A stretch of DNA of 64,000 nt from Clostridia bacterium (GTDB lineage Bacteria > Bacillota > Clostridia > Christensenellales > Pumilibacteraceae). Below, piece by piece: positions 9,191 to 64,000 of this stretch; the first letter of the stretch is position 1; every line of letters begins with the position of its first letter. The stretch spans positions 175,656 through 239,655 of the forward strand of contig JAAWAB010000008.1 of NCBI GenBank assembly GCA_022791915.1. Reading direction: 5' to 3'. The translations under genes were made by a program, and so were the position numbers. A model generated the notes under the pieces. That model did not search any database. It saw only the letters and a list, made by a program, of their open reading frames with translations, and was not told where the DNA came from.

Positions 9191-11545
9191 GTGAAACGTA
9201 TGGGACGGATTGGGCGACGGGCAATTACGGGGATTTGTTTTGCCGCATGTATTTTTGCGGCGTGTTTTCTTTCGGGGTGCGCGGACAAGGCGTCCGAACC
9301 CGTTGTATCGCCTTGGGAAGGCTGGGACGGCGAACTGTATTCAGCCGATTTCTCGCAAGGGGTACCGAACGACTGGAACGGAAAAGCGACGGAGAATGTG
9401 TCGGAAAGCGGAACGGACGGGCGTCTTGTATTGGAGCAAAGCGGTGCGTCGGCATCGAAATATGCCGTTTACCAAATACGGAAAGGGGTTTCATACGAAA
9501 ATTTTCGGTTGGAAATGCAAGTTTCCGTACGTTTTGCGGAGAGTGCTGCGGGGTGGTTCGGCGTTTTGTATCATCTGCGGGAAAACGGAAACAAGACGTC
9601 GGGTTACGGAGTGGCGGTAACGGGCGATGAAACGGCGGGGCACCGCGTTTTAGAAGAAAGTAAAAAAATTCGAGAGATTACGTCTTGCGAAATCGATTTT
9701 TCGGACGGAGTGCACCGTATTGCGTTGGAAGTATGGGAAGGGTCTGCCGCGTTCTTTTTGGACGGGGTGCAAATTGCCGTATTCGATTGTGCTTTGGCAA
9801 GCGATATTTTGGAAAAGACCTATTTAGACGGAGAATTGGCGATTGCTTTCGGAAATTGCAAGGCGGAACTTTACGACGTGCGGATAAAAGGGGTGATAGC
9901 GGAAAGCGAAAACAATCTTTCCGTGAATCGCAAAGCGGCGAGCATGGGAGTTTACGAAAAGAACGTGAATATTGCGGTGGTTTCGCGGTGGAACGGAGCA
10001 GACGCGGGAGAGTTGGCGCAAACGAAGGCGGCGTCCGTTTTGGTAACGATGAACGCCGACGGACAAATTACGGATTCGGCGGGAAACGAGATGGGCACAC
10101 TGCAAGAGATACATGCGGCGCTTAAAAACAAAGCCTATCCGATTGTGCGGGTGACCGATAAACAAAGCGCGCGCAAACTTTTATCCGCACTGCGACGGGA
10201 GTGTTGTATCGGTGATGTTGCCGTGCTCTCGTCGGCGTATGACGTGCTGGAATATGTGACTTTACGCAACACCGACATTCGGGGCGTATACGACATATCC
10301 ACCCAAAAGATTGCGTCTGCGGATACATTGTGGGGATACGTTTCACAGGCAAATCGAGTGCGTGCGAACACGCTGGTTTTGGGAACGACGCAGGCGAAAA
10401 AGGAATACGTGGACTACATACAGGCGCGGTTTAAGTCGGCATGGGTTGTTGCGAGCAAGGATTCGTTTGAAACGGACAAGGCGATTGCCTGCGGTGCAAG
10501 CGGCGTGATTACGGACGACGAAGGTTTGGTTTTACGGCGATTGAAAGCGTTTTCGGAAGCGGGCGGGCGGCTCGGGTCTGCGTTTAACGTGGCGCACAGG
10601 GGGAATTCTTACGAAACATATGAAAATTCTTTGCCTGCGTTTGTGCAAGCGTACGAAAGCGGCGCCACGCATATCGAGTTGGATATACAGATAACCAAAG
10701 ACGGAAAATTGGCAGTGATGCACGACCCGACGCTGAACCGAACGACGGACGGGACGGGTACGATATCCGCTATGACGCAGGCGCAGATTTCGCGCTATAA
10801 AATCACAAAAGACAGTGCGGGGAGAGTTCGCGGTGCGGGGGTGAAGATTCCGTTTTTGGAAGACGTTTACGCAGAGTTTGCGGACAAAGACTGTATTTTG
10901 GCGGTGGAAATCAAGTCGGGCGACGAGCGCATCGCCCGTGAACTTGCCCGCTTGACCCAAGAATACGACATGGAAAGCAAAGTGGTGATAATCAGTTTTT
11001 ACAACGGGTCGCTTGCGGGCGCCAATCAATTACGGGAAATGCGGGAGTATCTGCCGTCGGTTGCCGTGGCGGATTTGCAGACGCCCGATTTTACGGACAC
11101 GGCGAAGGCGTTTACCGTGCTAAACCGTAATTGTGCCGCGGCGGATTTCGGGTCGGACGGAAACGTAGACGCGGGTACGGTGCAAACGTTTACGGCGCGC
11201 GGATTTGCGCTTTGGGTTTGGACGGTGAACGGCAGCGGCGCAATCGCCGAAGCGTGGGCGCGCGGTATGAAAGGCGTTACCACCGATTCGGTGAAAGAAG
11301 GGGCGAAACCGGGTGTGTTTTTACAAATGAAAGAAGGGGTTTTGCGGGTGGGAGAAAACGGAGCGACGAGTTCGGAGGAACTTTTGGGCTTCTTGCAAAT
11401 GCGGTCGTTGAACGGGAGTGTTTCTTCTGTTCGGAACGGAAAAATCTTTTCGCAGGCGGAACGGAGCAAAGAAACGGAAGTGATTTGTTATGCCGAAAAC
11501 GGGACGGGACAGACGGTGTTCGGGGTGTTTACGGTAAAAAAATAG
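9191..11545 (+). CDS. Secreted lipoprotein: N-terminal LamG/DUF1080-like region, a degenerate GDPD-like region and a C-terminal glycerophosphodiester phosphodiesterase domain
   Basis: Lipobox FLSGC; NVAHRGNSYETYENSLPAFVQAYESGATHIELDIQITKDGKLAVMHDPTLNRTTDGTG. Confidence 0.88.
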   Translation: MKRMGRIGRRAITGICFAACIFAACFLSGCADKASEPVVSPWEGWDGELYSADFSQGVPNDWNGKATENVSESGTDGRLVLEQSGASASKYAVYQIRKGVSYENFRLEMQVSVRFAESAAGWFGVLYHLRENGNKTSGYGVAVTGDETAGHRVLEESKKIREITSCEIDFSDGVHRIALEVWEGSAAFFLDGVQIAVFDCALASDILEKTYLDGELAIAFGNCKAELYDVRIKGVIAESENNLSVNRKAASMGVYEKNVNIAVVSRWNGADAGELAQTKAASVLVTMNADGQITDSAGNEMGTLQEIHAALKNKAYPIVRVTDKQSARKLLSALRRECCIGDVAVLSSAYDVLEYVTLRNTDIRGVYDISTQKIASADTLWGYVSQANRVRANTLVLGTTQAKKEYVDYIQARFKSAWVVASKDSFETDKAIACGASGVITDDEGLVLRRLKAFSEAGGRLGSAFNVAHRGNSYETYENSLPAFVQAYESGATHIELDIQITKDGKLAVMHDPTLNRTTDGTGTISAMTQAQISRYKITKDSAGRVRGAGVKIPFLEDVYAEFADKDCILAVEIKSGDERIARELARLTQEYDMESKVVIISFYNGSLAGANQLREMREYLPSVAVADLQTPDFTDTAKAFTVLNRNCAAADFGSDGNVDAGTVQTFTARGFALWVWTVNGSGAIAEAWARGMKGVTTDSVKEGAKPGVFLQMKEGVLRVGENGATSSEELLGFLQMRSLNGSVSSVRNGKIFSQAERSKETEVICYAENGTGQTVFGVFTVKK

Positions 11546-34234: not shown

Positions 34235-34945
34235 TTGCGAATCAATAAATATCTTGCCGAATGCGGCTTTGCGGGTCGGAGAGGGTGTGAACAGATTGTT
34301 CTTGCCGGACGCGTGAAAATCAACGGGAAACAAGTGACCAATCTTGCCACAACGGTGGAAGAAAACGACCTTGTAACCGTTGACGGCAAGCGGGCGCAGC
34401 CCATACACAAGCATATTTATCTTATGCTCAACAAGCCGAAAGGATATATTACCACCACGAGCGACGAAAAGGGCAGAAAGACGGTGCTCGAGCTGCTGGG
34501 CAACAAATTTTCCGACAAGCGCATTTTTCCCGTGGGCAGGCTGGATTACGAAACGGAAGGACTGTTGTTGCTTACCACCGACGGCGACCTTTGCAATCGG
34601 ATTACGCACCCGCGCAACGAGATTACCAAAACGTACGTAGCGAAAATCGAAAACGAAGTGAGCGAAGACGAACTCAACAAATTGCGCGCGGGCGTCATTT
34701 TGGACGGAGTGAAAACCAAGCGTTGCCGCATTTCGGTACTGGGATTCGACGACAAAATCACCCGCTTGGAAGTGGTTATCAGCGAAGGACGCAACCGCCA
34801 GGTGCGCAGAATGTTTGAAACAATCAACCGCGAAGTGATTTTTCTTAAACGTGTGGGAATAGGCGAATTGAAACTGGGCGGATTGAGCAGGGGCGAATGG
34901 AGAGAACTCAAACCCAAAGAAGTGGAGTATCTCAAAAACGTATAG
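34235..34945 (+). CDS. rluB: Ribosomal large subunit pseudouridine synthase B
   Basis: RINKYLAECGFAGRRGCEQIV, VGRLDYETEGLLLLTTDGDL, GRNRQVRRMFE; TTG start. Confidence 0.93.
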   Translation: MRINKYLAECGFAGRRGCEQIVLAGRVKINGKQVTNLATTVEENDLVTVDGKRAQPIHKHIYLMLNKPKGYITTTSDEKGRKTVLELLGNKFSDKRIFPVGRLDYETEGLLLLTTDGDLCNRITHPRNEITKTYVAKIENEVSEDELNKLRAGVILDGVKTKRCRISVLGFDDKITRLEVVISEGRNRQVRRMFETINREVIFLKRVGIGELKLGGLSRGEWRELKPKEVEYLKNV

Positions 34946-50626: not shown

Positions 50627-52159
50627 ATGCATAAAATACTTTTTTCCAAACTGAAAGAGGCGCTTTTATCCGTGTTGCCGATTACGTTAATCGTGTTGAT
50701 TATTTCGTTTACACCGCTTGTAAGTTTATCGGTAACGGAGATTGTGGTATTTGCCGTTTCCGCCGTTTTTTTGATTGTGGGAATCGGATTGTTCAATTTG
50801 GGTGCCGACCTTGCCATGACGCCCATGGGCGAGCACGTGGGTTCGGGACTTACCAAATCCAAAAAGCTCAAAATTCTTTTGTCCGTATGTTTTGTTATGG
50901 GCGTTTTGATTACCGTTGCGGAACCCGATTTATCGGTGCTCGCGGGACAGGTGAAAGCGGTAATGAACAGTACATTGCTGATTGCAACCGTGGGCGTAGG
51001 CGTGGGACTTTTTCTGGTAATCGCCATATTGAAAATCGTATTCCGCAAAAATCTTTCTTCGCTTTTAATGTTTTTCTACATGATGCTCTTTGCGTTTTGT
51101 GCTATTATGATTGGCAGCGGGAAAACCGATTTTGTGCCGCTTGCTTTCGATTCGGGCGGCGTTACCACCGGTCCTATTACCGTGCCGTTTATTATGGCGC
51201 TCGGCGTGGGTATTGCCAACACAATCGGCGGACGCAACGCCAACGAAAACAGTTTCGGATTGATTGCGTTGTGTTCCATCGGTCCCATGATTGCGGTTAT
51301 GGTGCTTTCGCTCACGTCGAAAGGTGAAATTCCGCCCGTTTCTACCGATTATTCGATGAACGCCGATTTGGGTAGCGCCGCATTCTGGTTGACGGTGTTG
51401 GGAACCTTGAAAGAAGTGGCAATCGCCTTGGCTTTGATTGTGGCATTTTTTGCCGTTTTGCAAATTACGGTGCTCAAACTTCCCAAGCGGAAACTGGCGC
51501 AAATCGGTATCGGCATTGTGTATACGCTTGTGGGATTGGTTGTTTTTCTTACGGCGGTTAAAGTGGGATTTATGCCGATAGGATTCAAATTGGGGCAGGA
51601 AATCGCGCAGAAACATAAGATATTTACGATTATATTGAGTTTCATTCTCGGCATGGTGGTTGTACTCGCCGAGCCTGCCGTACACGTGCTTAATAAACAG
51701 GTAGAAGAAATCACGGGCGGGGGCGTTACCAAACTCGAAATGCTTTTGGCACTGTCCATTGGCGTGGGGATTTCGATAGGGCTTTCGGTAATCCGCATTA
51801 TTTGCGGTTTTTCGGTACTGTATTATTTGGTGCCCGGCTATCTGATTTCACTCGGGCTGTCGTTTTTCGTTCCCAAACTGTATACCGCGATTGCATTTGA
51901 CTCGGGCGGTGTGGCAAGCGGTCCGCTGACGTCCAGTTTCATTTTGCCGCTTGCAATCGGCGCCTGTGTGACGCTTGCTGGGCAGGACAGCATTTTAAGT
52001 CTGGCGTTCGGCGTGGTGGCAATGGTAGCCATGACGCCGCTCATAACCATTCAGGCGCTCGGTTTCAAAGCCGTTATGTCGGCAAAAGTGCGCCAGAAGA
52101 TTACCATGAAACGGATACTGTCGGCAGACGACGAACAGATTATATATTTTGAGCAGTGA
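50627..52159 (+). CDS. DUF1538 family membrane transporter with internal duplication
   Basis: Two homologous halves: PLAFDSGGVTTGPITVPFIMALGVG and AIAFDSGGVASGPLTSSFILPLAIG. Confidence 0.85.
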   Translation: MHKILFSKLKEALLSVLPITLIVLIISFTPLVSLSVTEIVVFAVSAVFLIVGIGLFNLGADLAMTPMGEHVGSGLTKSKKLKILLSVCFVMGVLITVAEPDLSVLAGQVKAVMNSTLLIATVGVGVGLFLVIAILKIVFRKNLSSLLMFFYMMLFAFCAIMIGSGKTDFVPLAFDSGGVTTGPITVPFIMALGVGIANTIGGRNANENSFGLIALCSIGPMIAVMVLSLTSKGEIPPVSTDYSMNADLGSAAFWLTVLGTLKEVAIALALIVAFFAVLQITVLKLPKRKLAQIGIGIVYTLVGLVVFLTAVKVGFMPIGFKLGQEIAQKHKIFTIILSFILGMVVVLAEPAVHVLNKQVEEITGGGVTKLEMLLALSIGVGISIGLSVIRIICGFSVLYYLVPGYLISLGLSFFVPKLYTAIAFDSGGVASGPLTSSFILPLAIGACVTLAGQDSILSLAFGVVAMVAMTPLITIQALGFKAVMSAKVRQKITMKRILSADDEQIIYFEQ

Positions 52160-52167
52160 GGTGACGC

Positions 52168-52668
52168 ATGGCGGATAAAGACAAAACGCACAAGCAACGA
52201 GTTGCCGAACGCAAAGATACGCGGCGGCAAAAAGTTGCGGCGGTTAAAAACAAAATAAAAAATGTTGCGGCAAAAAAATCGGGCAAGCAAAATCAACCCA
52301 ATACGGTAACGCAAAACCGTTTGGAACTGTTGGTAACAATCGTTAATCGCAGCAAAGCGGAATACTATCTCGACCTGATTCAGTCGTTTGAAGTGAACAT
52401 GCAATTTCTTGCGTTGGCGCACGGTACGGCAGACGAAAAAATGCGTAGTTATATCGGACTGACCGATTCGGACAAAGCGGTCATTTTCAGCGTAATACAG
52501 GAAAACAAGATTTCCGACGCAATGCATCTGCTCGAAAAAAAATTCGCCACTATCAAAAACGGAAAGGGTATCGCTTACACGCTTCCGCTTTCCAGCATAA
52601 TCGGAACGCTTATCTACGGATTTTTGAGCAACAACAAAATGGCGGTAAAGGAGAACAAACAATCGTGA
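52168..52668 (+). CDS. PII-like (GlnB-fold) protein with basic N-terminal extension
   Basis: RLELLVTIVNRSKAEYYLDLIQS...GKGIAYTLPLSSIIG aligns by eye with the next ORF; Lys/Arg-rich N-terminus. Confidence 0.65.
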   Translation: MADKDKTHKQRVAERKDTRRQKVAAVKNKIKNVAAKKSGKQNQPNTVTQNRLELLVTIVNRSKAEYYLDLIQSFEVNMQFLALAHGTADEKMRSYIGLTDSDKAVIFSVIQENKISDAMHLLEKKFATIKNGKGIAYTLPLSSIIGTLIYGFLSNNKMAVKENKQS

Positions 52669-53048
52669 GCAATCAGACTTCCTACGAATTGATTCTGTGT
52701 ATCGTAAACACGGGTTTTTCGGAAATCGTTATGGACGCGGCAAAAGAATGCGGCGCACGTGGCGGCACGGTGATTCATGCGAGAGGCACCGCAAACAAAG
52801 AGGCGGAAGAATTTTTTCATATCACTATACAGCCCGATAAAGAAATCGTGATGATATTGGTTGCCGCGGATATCAAAGACGCCGTTTTGCATGCGGTATA
52901 CCGTTCGGCGGGGTTGAAATCGGAAGGACAGGGCATTGCGTTTTCTATGCCCGTAAACCATGTTGTAGGACTTTCCGGTGGAATAAAACCCATTACGACA
53001 GACGAAACGCCGCCGCAAAATCCGTCCGAAGAATCAAAAACGGAATAG
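52665..53048 (+). CDS. P-II family nitrogen-regulator-like protein
   Basis: YELILCIVNTGFSEIVMDAAKECGARGGTVIHARGT...EKEIVMILV-type core, GQGIAFSMPVNHVVG. Confidence 0.8.
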   Translation: MSNQTSYELILCIVNTGFSEIVMDAAKECGARGGTVIHARGTANKEAEEFFHITIQPDKEIVMILVAADIKDAVLHAVYRSAGLKSEGQGIAFSMPVNHVVGLSGGIKPITTDETPPQNPSEESKTE

Positions 53049-53066
53049 CATATCGTAATCGATTTG

Positions 53067-53098
53067 CCCGTCGCTATGCGACGGGTTTTCTTTTTTTA
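53067..53098 (+). terminator. Terminator after the PII-like genes
   Basis: CCCGTCGC-TAT-GCGACGGG then TTTTCTTTTTTT. Confidence 0.85.
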
Positions 53099-53220
53099 TT
53101 TTTAATGCGTTTTTGAATTAAAATGTTATTCTGCGATACGAAAATTTGCTTTTTTGTGGATTTTTTCTCATTGCTGTGTGTTTATGTAGATTATTCCGCA
53201 AATGCGCTCTCAAACCGTGG

Positions 53221-53277
53221 TTGCAGTTATTTCCGCATATTGATATAATACACACATAGGAAATAATTCCGTATGTG
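53221..53277 (+). promoter_or_regulatory. ABC exporter promoter with overlapping palindromic operator candidate
   Basis: TTGCAG -N17- TATAAT (53244-53249) followed by CACATAGGAA-ATAA-TTCCGTATGTG. Confidence 0.55.
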
Positions 53278-53309
53278 AATATTATTCGTAGCGGAGAAGG
53301 AGGATAGTA

Positions 53310-54239
53310 TTGGAAATTATAAACGTAAATCATCTTACCAAAAACTACGGTTCGGGGCGCGGTGTATTCGATGTTTCCTTTTCGGTACACGAAGGTGAAG
53401 TATTCGGATTCTTGGGGCCCAACGGTGCGGGAAAATCTACTACTATACGGCATTTAATGGGATTTTCCAAACCGCAGAGCGGGCAAACACAAATTTTCGG
53501 AAAAGACACGTTTTCCCGATACAACGAAATCTTGGGAAATGTAGGATACATACCGGGTGAAATTGCGCTTCCCGCAGGATTAACGGGGTGGGAGTTTATT
53601 CGCATGATGCAGAACCTGCAACATTGCCGTAACGACGAACGATTGAAAACTCTTTTGGATTTGTTTGAGTTAAATCCTTCGGGAGAAACAAAACGAATGA
53701 GTTTAGGGGTAAAGCGTAAACTTGCAGTTGTTACCGCATTCATGAGTGATCCGCAAGTACTCATTCTTGATGAGCCGACTAGCGGACTTGACCCCGTAAT
53801 GCAAGAAGTATTCGTATCATTTATCAAAGACGAAAAGCAGCGCGGTAAAACTATTTTATTGTCCAGCCATATTTTTTCGGAAGTGGATGCCACATGTGAT
53901 AGAATTGCTATCATTAAAGACGGAAAAATCGTGTCGGATTTTATTGCCGATGATTTGAAACATGCATCACGCAAGCAGTACAAAGTGAGATTTTCGGATG
54001 CGGGTGAATATGCTTCCTTTTTGCAAACCGGAGAGAAAACAGACAAATGGGAAATTGTAAAAAAGGAACCGGACGTGTTTCGTCTGGTTCTTTCCACCGA
54101 CGACCGCTATATAAATGACGTAATCGAGTTATTATCCCGATATAAGGTGACGGATTTCGAACATCTTAAAGAAACTTTGGAAGACTATTTTATGCGCTAT
54201 TACAAAGAGGATAAAAATTTCGGGGGTGCGTTATCGTAA
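53310..54239 (+). CDS. ABC transporter ATP-binding protein
   Basis: GFLGPNGAGKSTTIRHLMG, MSLGVKRKLAVV, VLILDEPTSGLDPVM; TTG start. Confidence 0.94.
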   Translation: MEIINVNHLTKNYGSGRGVFDVSFSVHEGEVFGFLGPNGAGKSTTIRHLMGFSKPQSGQTQIFGKDTFSRYNEILGNVGYIPGEIALPAGLTGWEFIRMMQNLQHCRNDERLKTLLDLFELNPSGETKRMSLGVKRKLAVVTAFMSDPQVLILDEPTSGLDPVMQEVFVSFIKDEKQRGKTILLSSHIFSEVDATCDRIAIIKDGKIVSDFIADDLKHASRKQYKVRFSDAGEYASFLQTGEKTDKWEIVKKEPDVFRLVLSTDDRYINDVIELLSRYKVTDFEHLKETLEDYFMRYYKEDKNFGGALS

Positions 54240-55156
54240 TGAAACCGATTATAGAAATCAAAAAATTAACCAAGGACTACGGCGAAGGAAGAGGCGTGTT
54301 TGACGTAGATTTAACGATTTACCGCGGAGAAACATTCGGTTTTGTGGGTACGAACGGCAGCGGTAAAACAACTACAATCCGCAATATTATGGGATTTTTA
54401 CAACCAACAAGCGGTGCAGTATATGTAAACGGCAAAGAAGCGCGTTCCCATTCCAGCGAGATTGTGCGGAATATCGGATACGTTCCGGGAGAAATCGCGT
54501 TTCCCGATTTATCCACAGGCACAGAATTTTTGAGAAGTCAAGCAGAATTTTTACATACATCCGATATGTCTTATGCCGAATATTTGATTGAAAAGTTGCA
54601 ACTCGACCCACGTGCACCGCTCAAACGCATGAGCAAAGGCATGAAACAGAAAACCGCAATAGTTGCTGCTCTTATGGCAAATCCGTCCATACTCATTCTT
54701 GACGAACCTACTACGGGGTTGGACCCGTTAATGCGGGATGCGTTTTTGGAAATCGTACGTGAGGAGCATGATAAGGGCACAACAATCTTTATGAGCAGTC
54801 ATATGTTCGGCGAATTGGAAACGACATGTGACAGGGTGGCACTGATTCGCAATGGATACATTATCGATGTGGTTTCCATGCAGGACATTACGCACCGAAA
54901 AGAAAAAGAATACAAAATCGAATTTTCGACGGAAAATGATTACATTCGGTTCAAACAGCTTGACTACACGGTGGTACGCGATCAGCCGCAATATCATCAA
55001 GCTACCGTTTCCGTTACGTCCGAGCAAATAGAAAAACTATTGCGTGACCTGACAAACTACAATATTAAATTTATATCCGAAGTCACGTATAATCTGGAAA
55101 GACATTTCAAAACAATATTAAATCAAAAAAAGGAGAATGAAACTTATGTTCGGTAA
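54239..55156 (+). CDS. ABC transporter ATP-binding protein
   Basis: GFVGTNGSGKTTTIRNIMG, MSKGMKQKTAIV, ILILDEPTTGLDPLM. Confidence 0.94.
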   Translation: MKPIIEIKKLTKDYGEGRGVFDVDLTIYRGETFGFVGTNGSGKTTTIRNIMGFLQPTSGAVYVNGKEARSHSSEIVRNIGYVPGEIAFPDLSTGTEFLRSQAEFLHTSDMSYAEYLIEKLQLDPRAPLKRMSKGMKQKTAIVAALMANPSILILDEPTTGLDPLMRDAFLEIVREEHDKGTTIFMSSHMFGELETTCDRVALIRNGYIIDVVSMQDITHRKEKEYKIEFSTENDYIRFKQLDYTVVRDQPQYHQATVSVTSEQIEKLLRDLTNYNIKFISEVTYNLERHFKTILNQKKENETYVR

Positions 55157-56699
55157 ATCGTTATTCAAACAATCATGCAAAGCAAACGGAACGATGTGGA
55201 TTATCATAACCGTTGCCGTTTGTTTCATGCTCTCGTGCGTTATGCTCATAGCGGGCAACGGAGATTTGGGAGATACAAAAGTGGTTATAGAAGACGCAAT
55301 AGTGGAGGGCGAACTCACCGCACAGACACAAGGACGGGCAATCGAATACTATTCGCTTACCGACGAAACCCTTCGATTTTTCGATTCGCGTTTTCAATCC
55401 GAATTTGCTGCTTTTTCCCAAGAAAACGATATGCAGAAAGCGATAGCTACTGCCTATACAAAAGCACTGTTCGCCGTTAAAAACGAATATTATCCGCTAT
55501 TGTTATCGCACATGGGATATGCGTCGCAGTCGGTGCAGGCACAGGAGCTTATGGGTATTGTATTCTATTCGCTGAATCCGCCCGAAACGGACGCAAACGG
55601 TATTCCGACGGGAAAAAATCAGTTCGATGACTTTTTCGATTACGGCACATTGGGAATTGCTCCGCCCGATTATACAGTATATCTTTCCGATATACTTAAC
55701 AATCCGCAACATGCCGAGCGGCGTCAAAAATATGCTATGACACAGGCGAGTATTTTTCTTGCGGGCAATATGATAAAAGAAGAGAATGTGACTCTCATAT
55801 TGAATGAATTATCGCAATACCACATTACGCCGGAAAAGTTTCATGATTTCGGATTTGACGATTTTTCGTTTATAAGAAGATTATCCGAAAATACCGTAGT
55901 AAACTATCGTGCAAATTTTGCTTATCGTTGGGAACACAAACAGGAAGACGAAACGGAAGAGAGTATCAAACAAAATCTTACGGCGGAATTGGCATGTGGA
56001 TTGCTGTCGGCACTACCCGATACGGTATCGGACGCCTTAAAAGAAATCGGAGCAGCAGATTTGTACGGTACATTGGTAGGCTCTATATTCTTTAAGATGG
56101 CTGGATTATTACTACCCATTATTTATATGATTATGACAGCAAACGCACTGATTGCAGGACAGGTGGACAGCGGTTCTATGGCGTATATTCTGGCTACGGG
56201 CACCAAGAGAAAGGAAGTTGCGTTTACGCAGGCAATGTATTTAATCGGTTCGTTACTCGCCATGTTTCTCTGCACGACACTTACAAGTGTTATTTGCTTT
56301 GCCATAGTGGACGTTAATACAAAATTGACATATGGTAAACTTTTGCTTATCAATGTCGGCGCATTCTTTGTTCTGTTTGCCATGAGCGGAATTTGCTTTC
56401 TTGCTTCCTGCGTATTCAACCGCAGCAAACATTCCATGGCATCGGGTGGCGGACTTAATATGTTTTTCTTGGTTGCAACCATGTTGGGATTGTTCGGTTC
56501 TCCCGTTTTGCCGTCTATTATTCGCATGAAAGCGTTGAATACGTTTAACTATGTTACAATCATTTCATTATTCGATGTGGTTTCCATTCTCGAAGGTACA
56601 CTGACATATCTTTGGAAATGGGGGATTCTTGTTGCAATAGGCATTATTTGCTATGTGGCGGGAAGTGTTCGCTTCGCGAAAAAAGATTTGCCACTGTAA
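55137..56699 (+). CDS. ABC transporter permease (ABC-2 type)
   Basis: 520 aa, large extracytoplasmic loop and about six TM segments, downstream of two NBD genes. Confidence 0.85.
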   Translation: MKLMFGKSLFKQSCKANGTMWIIITVAVCFMLSCVMLIAGNGDLGDTKVVIEDAIVEGELTAQTQGRAIEYYSLTDETLRFFDSRFQSEFAAFSQENDMQKAIATAYTKALFAVKNEYYPLLLSHMGYASQSVQAQELMGIVFYSLNPPETDANGIPTGKNQFDDFFDYGTLGIAPPDYTVYLSDILNNPQHAERRQKYAMTQASIFLAGNMIKEENVTLILNELSQYHITPEKFHDFGFDDFSFIRRLSENTVVNYRANFAYRWEHKQEDETEESIKQNLTAELACGLLSALPDTVSDALKEIGAADLYGTLVGSIFFKMAGLLLPIIYMIMTANALIAGQVDSGSMAYILATGTKRKEVAFTQAMYLIGSLLAMFLCTTLTSVICFAIVDVNTKLTYGKLLLINVGAFFVLFAMSGICFLASCVFNRSKHSMASGGGLNMFFLVATMLGLFGSPVLPSIIRMKALNTFNYVTIISLFDVVSILEGTLTYLWKWGILVAIGIICYVAGSVRFAKKDLPL

Positions 56700-56780
56700 A
56701 AATCAAAATGTCGTTCGGAAAAACTTGTTTTTGCAACGACTTAATGATATACTGTTTTTATACCTGTAAGGGGGAGTATT

Positions 56781-57374
56781 ATGTACGAAGTCGCACAAAA
56801 AAAAAGCGATCGCAGAGTTCTTAAAACAAAGCGAGCCATACGTAACGCATTTATCAAATTACTTGCGGAAAAGGACATCAACGACATCACCGTCACAAAT
56901 ATAGCGGATGAAGCGGACATTGACCGTAAGACATTGTATAACTATTACGGTGGAATCTTTGAAATCCGTGAAGAATTGGAAAACGAATTGGCGAGTTTGC
57001 TTGACCAGGCAATAAAGGAAATTGATTTTGCCAACAACATCAAAAATCCGTTGCATATATTCGAGATTCTAACGAGTATTCTGACAGAACACCTTGAATT
57101 ATGCGGATATTTAATGAAGCTCAATGCTAATTCGCACATAGTTCGCAAAATCGACGGTGTATTACGGAACAAAGTGCGGCAAAGCATGGAAGAAGCAAAG
57201 CTGTTTTCCGATTCGTATACGCTCGATTTGTGTGCCGATTTTCTTACGGCAGGAATTTTGTCGGTGTATCAAAGTTGGTTCAATTCGGAACGCAGGCAAC
57301 CTTTGGAAAAAATCTCCAAAGACGTGGGGCGTTTGGTAGCTTACGGACTGAAAGACTTTGTAAAAGCGGATTGA
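56781..57374 (+). CDS. TetR/AcrR family transcriptional regulator
   Basis: KRAIRNAFIKLLAEKDINDITVTNIADEADIDRKTLYNYYGGIFEIREEL. Confidence 0.92.
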   Translation: MYEVAQKKSDRRVLKTKRAIRNAFIKLLAEKDINDITVTNIADEADIDRKTLYNYYGGIFEIREELENELASLLDQAIKEIDFANNIKNPLHIFEILTSILTEHLELCGYLMKLNANSHIVRKIDGVLRNKVRQSMEEAKLFSDSYTLDLCADFLTAGILSVYQSWFNSERRQPLEKISKDVGRLVAYGLKDFVKAD

Positions 57375-57400
57375 CAAACTTTGCCGCAATTTGGTATACT
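57371..57400 (+). promoter_or_regulatory. Sigma-A promoter abutting the ThiF-family ATG
   Basis: TTGACA -N18- TATACT; 6 nt to ATG 57407. Confidence 0.7.
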
Positions 57401-57406
57401 GGCAGT

Positions 57407-58117
57407 ATGAACAAACAACAGTTTTCAAGAACGGAATCCGTTTTCGGCGAGGCGGCAATGCAAAAACTTGCCGCTTCGCGCGTTATCGTGTTCGGAATCG
57501 GCGGGGTGGGCGGCTATACGGCAGAGGCGCTTGCCCGTTCGGGAGTGGGCGCATTGGATATTGTAGACAATGACACGGTAAGCATAACCGACATCAACCG
57601 CCAGATTATTGCTCTGCACTCCACTTTGGGACGATACAAGACCGACGTAGCCGCGGAACGGTTTGCCGACATCAACCCCGATTGTGTGGTAACGGCGCAC
57701 AAGCTGTTTTACTTACCCGAAACGGCAGACGCTTTTGATTTTACTGCCTACGATTATGTGGTAGATGCAATCGATACGGTTTCGGGAAAACTTACCATTA
57801 TCGAAAAAGCGCAAGCGTGCGGTGTGCCCGTTATCAGCGCTATGGGGGCGGGAAACAAGACGGATCCGACGGCGTTCGAAGTAGCAGACATATTTTCCAC
57901 TTCCGTTTGTCCGCTTGCAAAAGTCATGCGAAAAGAATTGAAAAAGCGGGGAATCGACCACCTGAAAGTCGTTTACTCCAAAGAAGAACCTGTTATTTCT
58001 CATCATGAAAACAAACAGGGAAAACCCGTTCCCGCCAGCACTGCGTTTGTGCCGTCGGTAGCAGGACTTATAATGGCAAGCGAAGTAATCAAAGATTTAA
58101 TCGGCTACAAAATATAA
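57407..58117 (+). CDS. tcdA: ThiF family protein, tRNA threonylcarbamoyladenosine dehydratase (TcdA/CsdL-like)
   Basis: VIVFGIGGVGGYTAEALARSGVGALDIVDNDTVSITDINRQI, SAMGAGNKTDPTAFEVADI. Confidence 0.92.
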   Translation: MNKQQFSRTESVFGEAAMQKLAASRVIVFGIGGVGGYTAEALARSGVGALDIVDNDTVSITDINRQIIALHSTLGRYKTDVAAERFADINPDCVVTAHKLFYLPETADAFDFTAYDYVVDAIDTVSGKLTIIEKAQACGVPVISAMGAGNKTDPTAFEVADIFSTSVCPLAKVMRKELKKRGIDHLKVVYSKEEPVISHHENKQGKPVPASTAFVPSVAGLIMASEVIKDLIGYKI

Positions 58118-58249: not shown

Positions 58250-58305
58250 TGGTGCCCGAGACCGGGGTCGAACCGGTACGAAGTTGCCTTCACAGGATTT
58301 TAAGT
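58250..58305 (-). pseudogene. 3' half of tRNA-Leu(UAA), truncated at the anticodon loop (integration scar)
   Basis: Minus strand ACTTAAAATCCTGTGAAGGCAACTTCGTACCGGTTCGACCCCGGTCTCGGGCACCA: anticodon loop CTTAAAA, variable arm, T-arm GGTTCGACCCC, acceptor 3' strand and CCA; no 5' half adjacent. Confidence 0.88.
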
Positions 58306-58522
58306 ATTTCATCATATAGTGTACTGCGTAAAATAGCGGTGTTTTGCACTGTTTTAGGGGTATTTTAGTCCAAAAATATGGTGATATAGGGCTTAATTGT
58401 GCTTTGATGGGAACAATTGTGTGCAGAGTTCTGCATTTTTGCGAGAAAAATGCGAGAAAACCAACTTTTTATATTGTTTTAAATTGCTAGTTTTATCTAA
58501 ACATTTTTATCGCATAATTATC

Positions 58523-58544
58523 TCTTGATAATTTTGTATCAAGA
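58523..58544. repeat. Inverted repeat TCTTGATA-N6-TATCAAGA upstream of the LRR gene
   Basis: Perfect 8-bp arms just 5' of the -35. Confidence 0.7.
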
Positions 58545-58546
58545 TC

Positions 58547-58575
58547 TTGCATTTTATTAGAAAAAATGATATAAT
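58547..58575 (+). promoter_or_regulatory. Sigma-A-like promoter of the LRR lipoprotein gene
   Basis: TTGCAT -N17- TATAAT. Confidence 0.6.
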
Positions 58576-58577
58576 TT

Positions 58578-58635
58578 ACACAAGCCAATATTTGTACTTT
58601 AGTACTTTCATTCTTTCTATAGTATTGGCTTGTGT
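58578..58635 (+). repeat. Large hairpin in the 5' region of the LRR gene
   Basis: 13-bp perfect arms ACACAAGCCAATA / TATTGGCTTGTGT with a 32-nt loop. Confidence 0.8.
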
Positions 58636-58711
58636 GCGACAAGACTGTAATGTGCTTTTAGGCATGTTTTGCAATTGGAGCAAACTTTTTTAATTGTGGA
58701 GACAATGTGAC

Positions 58712-61252
58712 ATGAGGAAATTGAAAAATCTATTAGTAGTGATTTCGATATTAATTTGTTCTTTAATTTGCGCATGCTTAATTATAGGTTGTAGCAATAA
58801 AGAAAATTCAGGTAGTACGCCTATTATTTACACAGAAATTCTTTCTGTTGATGGCGCAGAAATAAACGATAATGAGATTTTTATGTTTGTAGATCAATCG
58901 GTAGACAGTGTAACGCTCGCCGATAAAGTGATATGTAGCTCAGAAAGTGTGTGGCGACTTTACTATGATAAGCTCGGGCAAATCGAGATTCCCACTAAAA
59001 TAGCGGCAGGCTTGAGTGGTGTGTTATCAAATGGGGATAATTTCTTTTATATAGTAGTTACATCGCTGAACGGAACACAGACGAGTTTATATGAGTTGAC
59101 AGTACACCGTAGTTATGCGGTGAATATAAATTTCTATAATGCAAATTCACTCTTAAAATCTGATACCGTATATACTGGTCATGATTATACCGTGAATTAT
59201 ACTCCCAATATAGACGGATATAATTTTAATTATTGGAAAAGTGATAACGGAAGTAAATTTGACGGTAATTTTACTGTGTGGAATAATGTCAGCCTTTATG
59301 TGGACAAGACTGCAAAGCAGTACATAGCTAGTTTAGACGTAAACGGCGGCAATGAGTTGCGGACAGATACTCAAATTGTGACTTATGACAGTGACTATGG
59401 TTTTATAGTCCCTACAAAGACGGGGTATTCTTTTATTGGTTGGTATGATGGAAATACTCTGATAACGAGTGTAAATGGTGAAAGTCTTTTAGTGTGGAAG
59501 TATACTCAAAACAAAATATTTACTGCTAAGTGGGAAGCAAACACTTATACTCTTACGGCATTGTCAGACAATTCGTGCGGCGGCACTGTTGCCGGTGGTG
59601 GTGACTATCAATATGATAGTATTGTGACGCTAACGGCAACTACTAATATTGGATACACCTTTATAGGTTGGTATGATGAGAGCGGAGATAAAGTTTCTTT
59701 GGACTTGGTATATTCTGTAAAAATGGGGGTTGATACTTCATATACGGCAAAATGGATTCAAGTCATTCCTATTAGTGAAAACATAGATAAGGGAACGGTA
59801 AGCATTCTCACGGACGCCTATAAACCAGGAGATAGTGCAACAGTAACGGCAACTACTAATATCGGATACACTTTTATAGGTTGGTATGATGAAGAAACGA
59901 AGCTTACAGGCGAGTTAAGTTATACGTTTGAAATGGCGTCAGTAAATGCTGTTTATACGGCAAAATGGATTCAAGTCATTCCTATTAGCGAAAACATAAA
60001 TAAGGGAACGGTAAGCATTCTCACGGGCACCTATAAACCAGGAGATAGTGCAATAGTAACGGCAACTACTAATATTGGATACACCTTTATAGGTTGGTAT
60101 GATGAAGAAACGAAGCTTACAGGCGAGTTAAGTTATACGTTTGAAATGCCGTCAGTAAATGCTGTTTATACGGCAAAATGGATAACAAACAAAGAAATGG
60201 AAAATTTCATATTTGTTTCTAATGTGAACTCCTGTACTATTACAGGAATAATAGATAAAACGATTAGTAAAATTATTGTGCCCGACTATGTCACTAGTAT
60301 CGGTGATGGTGCTTTCTATGGTTGCGGAAGTTTAGCGAGTATAGAGATCCCGAGTAGCGTATCAAGTATCGGTAGTGATGCATTCCGTGATTGTGGTAGT
60401 TTAGCGAATATCGATATACCGAATAGTGTATCAAGTATCGGCGATAGAGCGTTTAGTGGTTGCAGTAATTTAACGAATATAGAGATTCCCAATAGTGTGA
60501 CATTTCTCGGGGCTCAATCATTTTATGGTTGCGGCAATCTAACGAGTATAGAGCTATCCAATAGTATAACAAGTATCGGCGATGGTTCGTTTTACTCTTG
60601 CAATAGTCTAGTGTGTATAACGTTACCTAATAGTGTTACAAGTATCGGTGGAAGTGCATTCTCGGCTTGCCTTAATCTAGCTAGTGTTACGATGGGATTT
60701 AACGTTGTGAGTATTGGAGAATATGCATTCAGTTATTGTAGAAATCTAACGAGTATAGAGATACCAAATAGCGTGACAAGCATCGGAGGCGGTGCATTCT
60801 ATGAATGCAATAGTTTAACGGCGATAGAGATACCAAATAGCGTAAAGAGTATAGAGGATAATGCATTCTATAAATGCAGTAGCCTAGCAACGATAGAGAT
60901 ACCGAATAGTGTTAAGAGCATCGGTAAGTACGCATTTTTCAGTTGCAGTAGTTTAACGAGCGTAACGATAGGAAACGGGGTTGCTATCATTGGCGGTTAT
61001 TCATTCGCTAGTTGTAGTAGTTTAACGAGTATATTGATACCTAACAGTGTAACAAGCATTGAAGCTAGAGCATTCCAATATTGTAAAAATCTAGCTAGTG
61101 TAACGTTTATGAATACAAATTCATGGTCGGCAGAATATCTTACAGGGGGGAGCTATTCTTTTAAGTCAAGTGATTTGGCTAATGTTAATACTGCTGCTAA
61201 TTATTTGACGTCGACATATTCTAATTTGGAATGGACTCGTGGTTTTTATTAA
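58712..61252 (+). CDS. BspA-like surface lipoprotein: InlB/Listeria-Bacteroides-type repeats plus LRR_5 repeats
   Basis: Lipobox LIIGC; GYTFIGWYD...YTAKW repeats; about a dozen 23-aa SIGxxAFxxCxxLxxIEIPNSVT repeats; AT-rich codon usage. Confidence 0.93.
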   Translation: MRKLKNLLVVISILICSLICACLIIGCSNKENSGSTPIIYTEILSVDGAEINDNEIFMFVDQSVDSVTLADKVICSSESVWRLYYDKLGQIEIPTKIAAGLSGVLSNGDNFFYIVVTSLNGTQTSLYELTVHRSYAVNINFYNANSLLKSDTVYTGHDYTVNYTPNIDGYNFNYWKSDNGSKFDGNFTVWNNVSLYVDKTAKQYIASLDVNGGNELRTDTQIVTYDSDYGFIVPTKTGYSFIGWYDGNTLITSVNGESLLVWKYTQNKIFTAKWEANTYTLTALSDNSCGGTVAGGGDYQYDSIVTLTATTNIGYTFIGWYDESGDKVSLDLVYSVKMGVDTSYTAKWIQVIPISENIDKGTVSILTDAYKPGDSATVTATTNIGYTFIGWYDEETKLTGELSYTFEMASVNAVYTAKWIQVIPISENINKGTVSILTGTYKPGDSAIVTATTNIGYTFIGWYDEETKLTGELSYTFEMPSVNAVYTAKWITNKEMENFIFVSNVNSCTITGIIDKTISKIIVPDYVTSIGDGAFYGCGSLASIEIPSSVSSIGSDAFRDCGSLANIDIPNSVSSIGDRAFSGCSNLTNIEIPNSVTFLGAQSFYGCGNLTSIELSNSITSIGDGSFYSCNSLVCITLPNSVTSIGGSAFSACLNLASVTMGFNVVSIGEYAFSYCRNLTSIEIPNSVTSIGGGAFYECNSLTAIEIPNSVKSIEDNAFYKCSSLATIEIPNSVKSIGKYAFFSCSSLTSVTIGNGVAIIGGYSFASCSSLTSILIPNSVTSIEARAFQYCKNLASVTFMNTNSWSAEYLTGGSYSFKSSDLANVNTAANYLTSTYSNLEWTRGFY
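59759..60182 (+). repeat. Two near-identical tandem 213-bp (71-aa) coding repeats
   Basis: IQVIPISENIDKGTVSILTD..AVYTAKW duplicated; about 8 mismatches counted by eye. Confidence 0.88.
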
Positions 61253-61540
61253 GATTTTCAGTTGCATTACTTTTTCAAGTAGTGTGTAATAATAAAAATT
61301 CAATAATAAATGCAAAGTCTATTTAAGAAGCATTGGAACCTATTTAAGACTCCAAACTACACAATGACCCAAGGGATTATGAATCCTCGGTGTCTCATGC
61401 ACTTTTTAAATAGTGAAAAACATGCGAGAAGATGCAAGAAAATCAAATATAACATCTAATTCTTTTTCTGTCGTTTGAGAGTCGAGCGTTCAAATCTGAC
61501 CCATTGTTTCATCTTAGTTGGATACAAATGTCATCTAACC

Positions 61541-61578
61541 AGATAAGCCGTGAAAACATAAGTTTTCACGGCTTATCT
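61541..61578. terminator. Perfect 17-bp inverted repeat, probably a terminator between the island and the AraC region
   Basis: AGATAAGCCGTGAAAAC-ATAA-GTTTTCACGGCTTATCT. Confidence 0.6.
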
Positions 61579-61748
61579 ACTATAATTGTGGTTTAAGAGG
61601 CAGTATTTTTGAATTTTACTGCTGTCTTTTTGTTGTTTGGGTTAAACAGAGCTTGAACCGGTAATTGCAAAGATGTAGAAGATATAATATCAAGGGGGCG
61701 TAAATATGTTTATAGAATGCGGTCGGACGCGTAACGATACGGCGGTAA

Positions 61749-62600
61749 TTATTGTTTTTGTGAGTCGCGTTGGCTTTTGCGGTATTGCAAGGGCGTTTGT
61801 CCGTACTGCGACTTGAACGACTTGATGAAAAAGGAGAGGGAGTCGTAGCCGCATTCTTCGCAAACGGAAAGAACGGTATCGTCGGTGTGGCGAAGCAGTT
61901 CGGCGGCATAGTCGATGCGCAAGCGGTTTAGGTACTGCACGATGGAAACGCCGGTGTACTGCTTGAAGATATTGAGAAACTGCGAATGCGAATAATTGGT
62001 TTGCGCAATTATATCGCTCACTTTTTGCGTGAAGAATGCAGGCGATTGCAAATTTTTGAGTATGTCCAAAAGCACCGGCGGCGCGTCGATTTTTTTGATG
62101 ACGTGTTGGGAAAAATATATACCGACTACCATATTCAAAATGGATTGCGACAGCCCCTCTACGGGTTGAAAATCCGTGCTCGTGTCGGCGGAATACACCA
62201 AACACAGCGTGTCGAGGTTGCGGCACAGTAGGTCTATCGACTCGCGCATAGACGCGTCTAAGCGGATATGCAACAGCCGCGAGTCGCCGTTGAGTTTGCC
62301 GTACAGATCCGCCGAATAGTTGTTGCATATTTTTTGCACCGTTTCGGACGAAAAATAGATGTCGCGGTGCAAGTGGGGCGTCGTAACGAAACGTATCTCG
62401 TGCAAGTGCTGTGGACTGAGCAAAAAAACGTCGCCCTCGGTTGCAGTGTATTTTGTTTCGTTTACGATATTGTCGGTAACGCCTTGCTCGAAAATGAGCA
62501 ATTCCCACTGGCTGTGTCGGTGGGGCGGATTGGGCGTAAAATACTCGCGGGTAATTTGGTTGCGCCCCACGGTAAGAAGTTGAACCACGTTCTTTTTCAT
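61749..62600 (-). CDS. AraC family transcriptional regulator with cupin sensor domain
   Basis: PPHRHSQWELLIFEQG N-terminal cupin; HSQFLNIFKQYTGVSIVQYLNRLRIDYAAELLRHTDDTVLSVCEECGYDSLSFFIKSFKSQYGQTPLQYR HTH. Confidence 0.94.
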   Translation of the reverse strand: MKKNVVQLLTVGRNQITREYFTPNPPHRHSQWELLIFEQGVTDNIVNETKYTATEGDVFLLSPQHLHEIRFVTTPHLHRDIYFSSETVQKICNNYSADLYGKLNGDSRLLHIRLDASMRESIDLLCRNLDTLCLVYSADTSTDFQPVEGLSQSILNMVVGIYFSQHVIKKIDAPPVLLDILKNLQSPAFFTQKVSDIIAQTNYSHSQFLNIFKQYTGVSIVQYLNRLRIDYAAELLRHTDDTVLSVCEECGYDSLSFFIKSFKSQYGQTPLQYRKSQRDSQKQ

Positions 62601-62606
62601 AAGAAT

Positions 62607-62635
62607 ATTGTAATCGTTTTGTCCGGTATCGTCAA
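62607..62635 (-). promoter_or_regulatory. Promoter abutting the AraC ATG
   Basis: Minus strand TTGACG -N17- TACAAT -N6- ATG. Confidence 0.65.
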
Positions 62636-62738
62636 GTAAAATACGGAAAATAGAAAATAAAGCCGTTTATAATGGTGCCGTTATTGCCATATCGGTAGCA
62701 AAATCATAAAAAAGAGCAGTTTTATGCGAAAAAAAGGC

Positions 62739-62769
62739 AAGACAGCGGGGGGGGGTAGTAGTGTATAAT
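62739..62769 (+). promoter_or_regulatory. Putative promoter with G9 tract in the spacer, upstream of the solute-binding protein
   Basis: AAGACA (62739-62744) -N19 including G9 (62747-62755)- TATAAT (62764-62769). Confidence 0.45.
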
Positions 62770-62828
62770 TGTTATATATTCGATTATAGACAAACTGTAG
62801 ACAAAAATTTTATTAAGCGGAGGTAGTG

Positions 62829-64000
62829 ATGAAAATACTATTCAAAAGACTGTTAGTGTTGCTGATGGGCGTTTTATTGCTGTTTTCGGTTGCGAGTTGC
62901 GCGTCGCCCGAAGTGGAAGGTGAGGAAGATAACCCGACGGAAGATATCGATACGTCTAAAACGCAATTGTATATCAACAATTACGGCGGCGGTTACGGTA
63001 GCGGTTGGTTACGGGCGGTAAAAGAGCGTTACGAGGAATTGCATAAAGACGACGTGTGGGAAGAAGGTAAACGGGGTGTGCAGATCTACATTTCCTCTCC
63101 CAAAACGGCGGCTACGAGCGCAGCGATACGAAATAACCGCGACGAAGTTTATTTTAACGAGTATTCTTATTATCGGTCGTTAAAGTCGGACGGCGTGCTT
63201 TTGGATTTGACCGAAGCGGTGACGGCGGACTTGGGCGATTACGGCGATACGGCGGGCAAAACGATAGAAAGCAAACTTACCGTGCAACAGCGCGAATTTT
63301 TCGGAATAGAAGAAAACGGCTCGGCGCATTATTACGGTTTGCCGCATTACGCCGGATATACGGGAATTACGTATAACGTAGACTTGTTTGACGAGAAAGG
63401 ATATTATTTCGTTGACGGATACGAAACCAAAAGCAAGAAATTTTTGTTTTATTATAACAGCGCCGAAAAAAGCGCGGGTCCCGACGGCGTGAAAGGCACG
63501 TCGGACGACGGGTTGCCCGTAACGTACGATGATTTCTTTTTGTTGTTGCAACAAATGCAAAGCGAAGGCATTACGCCCATCTCATGGAATGGTACGCATA
63601 GGGATACGTACTTGTCGTATTTGTTGCAGTCGCTTGTTGCCGATTACGAAGGGGCGGAACAAATGATGCTTAATTATACGTTTAGCGGCACGGCGACTGA
63701 TTTGGGAACCGTTCAAAACGGAGTATTTGTAAAAGATGCGAATCCCACCGAAATACGAGCCGTTAACGGTTACGATGTATACCGTCAGCAAGGCAAATAC
63801 GAAGCGCTTGAATTTTTGCGCAAACTTGTTGTTAAAACCAACGACGATTACCACAATACGCTTGCGTTCAACGGCGGCTATTCGCATATGGATGCGCAAA
63901 GAGATTTCCTGTATGCGGGGCATGACGGTGTGACCGACCCTATCGGTATGTTGGTAGACGGCATATGGTGGCAGAGCGAAGCAAACGCTACTTTTAATAC
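62829..64000 (+). CDS. ABC transporter extracellular solute-binding lipoprotein (carbohydrate type), partial at window end
   Basis: ATG 62829 after GGAGG; lipobox VASC; open to the window end (TQLYINNYGGGYGSGWLRAVKERYEELH..., GLPHYAGYTGITYNVDLFDEKGYYF). Confidence 0.88.
   Translation, partial: MKILFKRLLVLLMGVLLLFSVASCASPEVEGEEDNPTEDIDTSKTQLYINNYGGGYGSGWLRAVKERYEELHKDDVWEEGKRGVQIYISSPKTAATSAAIRNNRDEVYFNEYSYYRSLKSDGVLLDLTEAVTADLGDYGDTAGKTIESKLTVQQREFFGIEENGSAHYYGLPHYAGYTGITYNVDLFDEKGYYFVDGYETKSKKFLFYYNSAEKSAGPDGVKGTSDDGLPVTYDDFFLLLQQMQSEGITPISWNGTHRDTYLSYLLQSLVADYEGAEQMMLNYTFSGTATDLGTVQNGVFVKDANPTEIRAVNGYDVYRQQGKYEALEFLRKLVVKTNDDYHNTLAFNGGYSHMDAQRDFLYAGHDGVTDPIGMLVDGIWWQSEANATFN

Follow-up and report, generated by a model that had tools for sequence, protein, structure and literature searches.

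An orphan tRNA-Leu(UAA) 3′ half in a Clostridia genome as the probable attR scar of a conjugative element that carries its own replacement tRNA

Genomic islands that integrate into tRNA genes usually leave an intact tRNA at one end (PMC4383910). In the actinophages studied by Guerrero-Bustamante and Hatfull, integration through a core of ~10 bp splits an essential host tRNA gene, and the phage must supply a tRNA of that isotype (PMC10865867). Like the element described here, Fionnbharth, LeBron and Gaia have a tyrosine integrase and a short core overlapping the host tRNA gene, and the actinophage cores span 8–11 bp in the examples that use a short core; the tRNA is likewise not rebuilt, a same-isotype tRNA is carried, and arm-type sites flank the core (PMC10865867). 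Fionnbharth differs in being an actinobacterial phage whose tRNA lies elsewhere in the genome, overlapping gene 37, and has its own strong promoter (PMC10865867). The clostridial type, in contrast, is conjugative and carries its tRNA between core and integrase gene, usually ~140 bp from the core.

In integrative and conjugative elements (ICEs) of Pasteurellaceae, each end holds a disrupted tRNA-Leu and the element provides an intact one (PMC6028734, PMC6861422). As here, ICEPmu1 and ICEMh1 occupy a tRNA-Leu anticodon loop, with an 11–13-bp repeat and the intact tRNA at one end; another disrupted copy has been reported upstream of that tRNA (PMC6028734, PMC6861422). These ICEs are gammaproteobacterial, use tRNA-Leu for UUG only and have the intact copy by parA (PMC6028734, PMC6861422), whereas the clostridial ones, likened to them by layout, are MobL elements that use several isoacceptors and hold the tRNA next to the integrase. 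In rhizobial phage-related sequences, too, the host tRNA is inactivated and replaced by an element tRNA of similar isoacceptor type, although these are alphaproteobacterial and prophage-like (PMC11476347). The Lactobacillus johnsonii prophage Lj965, as it is cited in PMC10865867, similarly has an unreconstructed tRNA at its junction and a cognate tRNA within the prophage, but is a prophage and a single case. A clostridial ICE that replaces the tRNA it destroys is thus a variant of a known principle, not a new principle: tRNA replacement is proven for actinophages, described for Pasteurellaceae ICEs and, from the survey below, common in conjugative elements of Clostridia. A literature search, largely outside subscription journals, turned up no earlier account of these clostridial elements.

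The window, meaning the whole stretch of 64,000 nucleotides that was analysed, is C20:175656-239655 of a 1.89-Mb draft genome (23 contigs, 94% complete); contig C20 stops at window position 64000. Minus-strand positions 58305–58250 read ACTTAAAATCCTGTGAAGGCAACTTCGTACCGGTTCGACCCCGGTCTCGGGCACCA and comprise the UAA anticodon loop, the 3′ strand of the anticodon stem, the variable arm, the T-arm, the acceptor strand and CCA. Neither ARAGORN nor Rfam at gathering score found a complete tRNA in the window, so that 58250–58305 is a fragment, the orphan 3′ half of the host tRNA-Leu(UAA). It is 100% identical to positions 32–87 of the 87-nt tRNA formed with the 5′ half described below, compared with 91–93% identity for the intact tRNA-Leu(UAA) of congeners, and is not a chance resemblance. 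Behind the CCA end, at about 58249–58200 on the minus strand, a hairpin judged by eye (AATCCGAA...TTCGGATT) followed by a T-rich tract is probably the original host tRNA terminator. The chromosomal flank lies at 50627–58117 (+), and GC content falls from ~0.43–0.51 to 0.32–0.36 immediately right of 58306. A first-pass annotation of the sequence had described just this anatomy: a minus-strand tRNA-Leu(UAA) 3′ half cut at the anticodon loop, its own terminator hairpin behind it and an abrupt turn to AT-rich sequence at 58306.

Searching with the canonical tRNA 5′ end located the 5′ half on contig C15 as GCCCGAGTGGCGGAACAGG. The order there is tRNA-Val, tRNA-Gly, tRNA-Cys, the tRNA-Leu 5′ half, ~148 bp, a complete tRNA-Leu(UAA) and a convergent integrase gene. 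A terminator-like hairpin, identified by eye, lies between tRNA-Cys and the 5′ half (L004 about 9415-9475, C15) and also occurs in congeners. The 5′ half terminates in CCAGGACTTAAAATCC-GTTGCGTC; at both junctions the half runs into non-tRNA sequence, leaving the host tRNA unreconstructed. Joining the C15 and C20 halves gives a perfect tRNA in which 5/5 positions pair in the anticodon stem and 7/7 in the acceptor. What the two ends have in common is an 11-bp core, ACTTAAAATCC, which covers the anticodon loop and the start of the stem at 58295–58305 (−) in the window and recurs where the 5′ half ends (G000:C15:34374-34384, −). Because this core is too short, the tRNA gene cannot be restored. A small insertion with its 5′ half elsewhere in the window was also considered, and was dropped since the window holds no second core.

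Inside each end of the element lies one copy of a 22-bp repeat, TTCTCGCATTTTTCTCGCAAAA, at 58437–58458 (−) within attR and at C15:34260-34281 (−) within attL. These are its only two copies in the genome with up to 3 mismatches allowed, and they have the look of integrase arm-type sites. The element's complete tRNA-Leu(UAA) (C15:34141-34227, −) has the core on one side and the convergent integrase gene on the other, and points the same way as the broken host gene; it is a different gene, about 80% identical to the host's.

The right end of the integrated element occupies 58306–64000, and its remainder is taken to continue in C15:1-34373 across an assembly gap. As the ends are on different contigs, we infer their continuity from the halves, the arm repeats and synteny; no direct sequence overlap between the end of C20 and the start of C15 was found, so the gap remains. 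The element is at least 40 kb long and contains an unassembled gap. The tyrosine integrase (L004:7906-9102, C15; Phage_integrase 1.8e-21) adjoins attL, and C15:1-34373 encodes a MobL relaxase, a VirD4-like coupling protein (C15 overall has T4SS-DNA_transf and P-loop_TraG Pfam matches), a VirB4-like ATPase, an ArdC-type protein and a 3633-aa protein that combines methylase and helicase domains. With an integrase, a relaxase, a coupling protein and a VirB4-type ATPase all in this interval, the element is by gene content an ICE, presumably mobile now or formerly. In the window it carries as cargo a BspA-type leucine-rich-repeat surface lipoprotein (58694–61252, +; LRR_5 5e-91). An AraC-family regulator (61749–62600, −) and a lipoprotein weakly like carbohydrate ABC substrate-binding proteins (62826–63998, +; truncated by the contig end) are either cargo or unassigned.

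In three congeners (G001, G002 and G004) the Val-Gly-Cys-Leu(UAA) cluster is intact, and the genes upstream of it are those found on C15. In G002 and G004 the flank genes of window positions 50627–57374 are on the cluster's contig, about 10 kb downstream and in the expected orientation. ThiF was not found beside the tRNA in congeners; the other flank genes are syntenic. The first-pass annotation was right that 58250–58305 is an att remnant left by a tyrosine integrase acting at the anticodon loop, and that the element extends rightward from 58306. The comparison with relatives that it suggested does show an intact tRNA; the integrase adjoins the far end, on C15 by attL and not on the window's own contig, which ends at 64000.

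The best explanation, to which we assign a probability of roughly 0.93, is that 58250–58305 is the attR scar of an ICE that split tRNA-Leu(UAA), did not rebuild it and brought its own replacement tRNA. At the level of sequence, this reading is carried by the two halves, the core, the arm repeats, the replacement tRNA, the integrase, the conjugation genes, the empty site in congeners and the recurrence of the arrangement in other genomes. The integrase would recombine at the anticodon stem-loop of the host tRNA-Leu(UAA); with only the ~11-bp core common to attP and attB, integration would split the tRNA permanently, placing the 5′ half at attL and the 3′ half at attR. The element would survive the splitting because it brings a complete tRNA-Leu(UAA), whose transcription would begin at the host tRNA promoter, reach it by read-through and stop at the element's terminator.

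Five Leu tRNAs were identified in the assembly, one each for UAA (the element's), UAG, CAA, AAG and CAG. The element's tRNA is the only one with a UAA anticodon among the tRNAs identified, although an intact tRNA-Leu(UAA) could still lie unassembled elsewhere in this 94% complete draft. UUA accounts for 37 of the 222 Leu codons in six flanking genes. Because UUA decoding needs a UAA anticodon by standard decoding rules, the element's tRNA is probably essential for it, and the cell probably depends on the element for survival. Such elements would be hard to lose without any toxin-antitoxin system, would drive horizontal replacement of essential tRNA genes, and would be missed or misplaced by standard island finders that seek a regenerated tRNA.

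Homologous integrases (E ≤ 1e-50) occurred in 38 of 396 genomes sampled at the order level and in 49 of 388 sampled at the class level. A 5′ half was counted if it lay upstream, reached the anticodon and scored better than all 200 shuffles; 37 of the 45 homologous loci with a testable nearby tRNA, the present one included, had such a half. Among 41 fragments measured, 40 ended 2–5 nt past the anticodon. The isoacceptors among homologues were Leu-UAA, Leu-CAA, Ser-CGA, Ser-UGA, Lys-CUU, Arg-ACG and Arg-UCG, to which more distant integrases add Trp-CCA and Thr-CGU. Two of the genomes, G393 and G372, encode MobL relaxases plus VirB4-like or VirD4-like proteins, and the search of G620 turned up no CAA tRNA-Leu other than the element's. 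Unrelated integrases were intended as a negative control, but are not a clean one, since a half was also present in 4 of the 7 with a testable tRNA (L103, L105, L125, L126); the "half" at L125 may be a whole tRNA copy. On G114:C2 (L162 position 18219, L141) a tRNA-Leu 3′ half is present; no replacement tRNA or 5′ half was found within the stretches read near the integrase.

Both halves lie on one contig, 12–36 kb apart, in seven genomes (G245, G292, G393, G095, G372, G620 and G738). With the present locus included, the joined halves pair fully in 6 of 8 cases, the exceptions being G292, with only 2/5 anticodon-stem pairs, and G738, which fails both stems (4/5 and 5/7 pairs). Mispaired control halves pair fully in 1 of 56 combinations, and that one joins the G738 5′ half to the G620 3′ half, the same tRNA in an orthologous pair. 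In G738 itself (C1, about 625416-645000; L235-L236) the far-end 3′ half does not match the 5′ half, possibly because two elements have rearranged with each other or because a different tRNA gene was used.

Promoter-like sites (better than 95% of shuffles) precede the dead 5′ half in 23 of 37 regions, and the replacement tRNA has a strong terminator behind it in 32 of 38 cases. The simplest reading of this pattern is that the replacement tRNA is promoterless and is placed behind the host tRNA promoter by integration, and that it apparently has no promoter of its own, unlike Fionnbharth's. A different account accepts the element but has the replacement tRNA use its own spacer promoter, as that of mycobacteriophage Fionnbharth uses its own strong one (PMC10865867). 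At p<0.05, promoter-like sites do occur in 5 of the 37 spacers before the replacement tRNA, where about 2 would be expected, and a few spacers contain terminator-like hairpins. Yet the region before the dead half has consensus promoters far more often, and spacer terminators are rare (5/38), leaving an own promoter a possible but somewhat doubtful source of expression. At the present locus a tool scan found no consensus promoter in the tRNA cluster, which together with the terminator-like hairpin before the 5′ half makes promoter capture a weaker proposition here than in the family.

The chances are about even that these loci represent a large undescribed group of clostridial ICEs and related islands that replace tRNAs by promoter capture and are subject to stacked re-targeting. 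In such a group the element's tRNA, having no promoter of its own, would be expressed only once integrated behind a host tRNA promoter, and host viability would thereby be tied to correct integration. The replacement tRNA could in turn be the next target, leaving dead 5′ halves stacked one behind another and turning over an essential tRNA gene time and again.

Islands in tRNA genes are usually of the standard kind, in which an element-borne 3′ half rebuilds an intact tRNA at the other end (PMC4383910). One relative of the integrase (L127 in G293; 53% identity) does have an intact tRNA-Leu(UAA) by the integrase gene directly after tRNA-Cys, with no half, so integrase relatives such as this one may rebuild the tRNA. 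The first-pass annotation had likewise expected an intact tRNA-Leu with the same 56-bp 3′ end at the far end. That part of it did not hold: C15 instead has an orphan, un-rebuilt 5′ half followed by non-tRNA sequence, the core common to both ends is only 11 bp, and no other gene in the genome, intact tRNA genes included, has this 3′ end. Rebuilding is thus refuted at this locus unless C15 is misassembled at 34373, and we regard it as very unlikely.

Even less credible is an assembly or binning artefact, in which a chimeric contig made the cut and the halves match by coincidence. The genome is a draft, and the two ends lie on two contigs with a gap between them. However, the same architecture appears in many independent assemblies, the seven genomes with both halves on one contig include two single-contig ones (G620 and G738), and the arm repeats occur solely at the two element ends. 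Group I introns are known from the anticodon loop of tRNA-Leu(UAA), their classic site, but an intron here, or a split tRNA joined in trans, is extremely improbable given that the window has no Rfam match for one, the 5′ half is on another contig beside integrase and ICE genes, the gene is intact in congeners and the element holds a full replacement tRNA.

At L129, L132, L206 and L152 and on the faecal phage contig MT836101, the replacement tRNA comes after two successive 5′ halves, which suggests that a later element inserted into an earlier element's replacement tRNA. L286 likewise has two successive orphan 5′ halves ahead of its replacement tRNA. Around positions 2000–2440 of L194 (G034:C39:179000-185000), an element-element junction is followed by a second replacement tRNA-Leu(CAA), apparently marking tandem elements. 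The idea that an altered anticodon stem shields the replacement tRNA from the element's integrase was rejected as a rule. Here the stem does differ from the host's (GCAGA against CAGGA), but the replacement tRNAs of L138 and L205 retain the host 5′ sequence, and the stacked halves show that replacement tRNAs get targeted.

A "plasmid" of Fusobacterium hwasookii, the circular 52-kb record NZ_CP013332.1 (L289), resembles an element of this kind excised as a circle: its core, GACTCAAAATC, is flanked by non-tRNA sequence, a full tRNA-Leu(CAA) and an integrase gene (34% identity) follow ~105 bp on, and it also carries a MOBQ relaxase. In Enterococcus faecalis, an island with conjugation genes and a 38%-identical integrase (NZ_CP143580.1:222543-229688; L288, L291) has a tRNA-Lys(CUU) 5′ half beside the integrase and carries its own tRNA-Lys(CUU).
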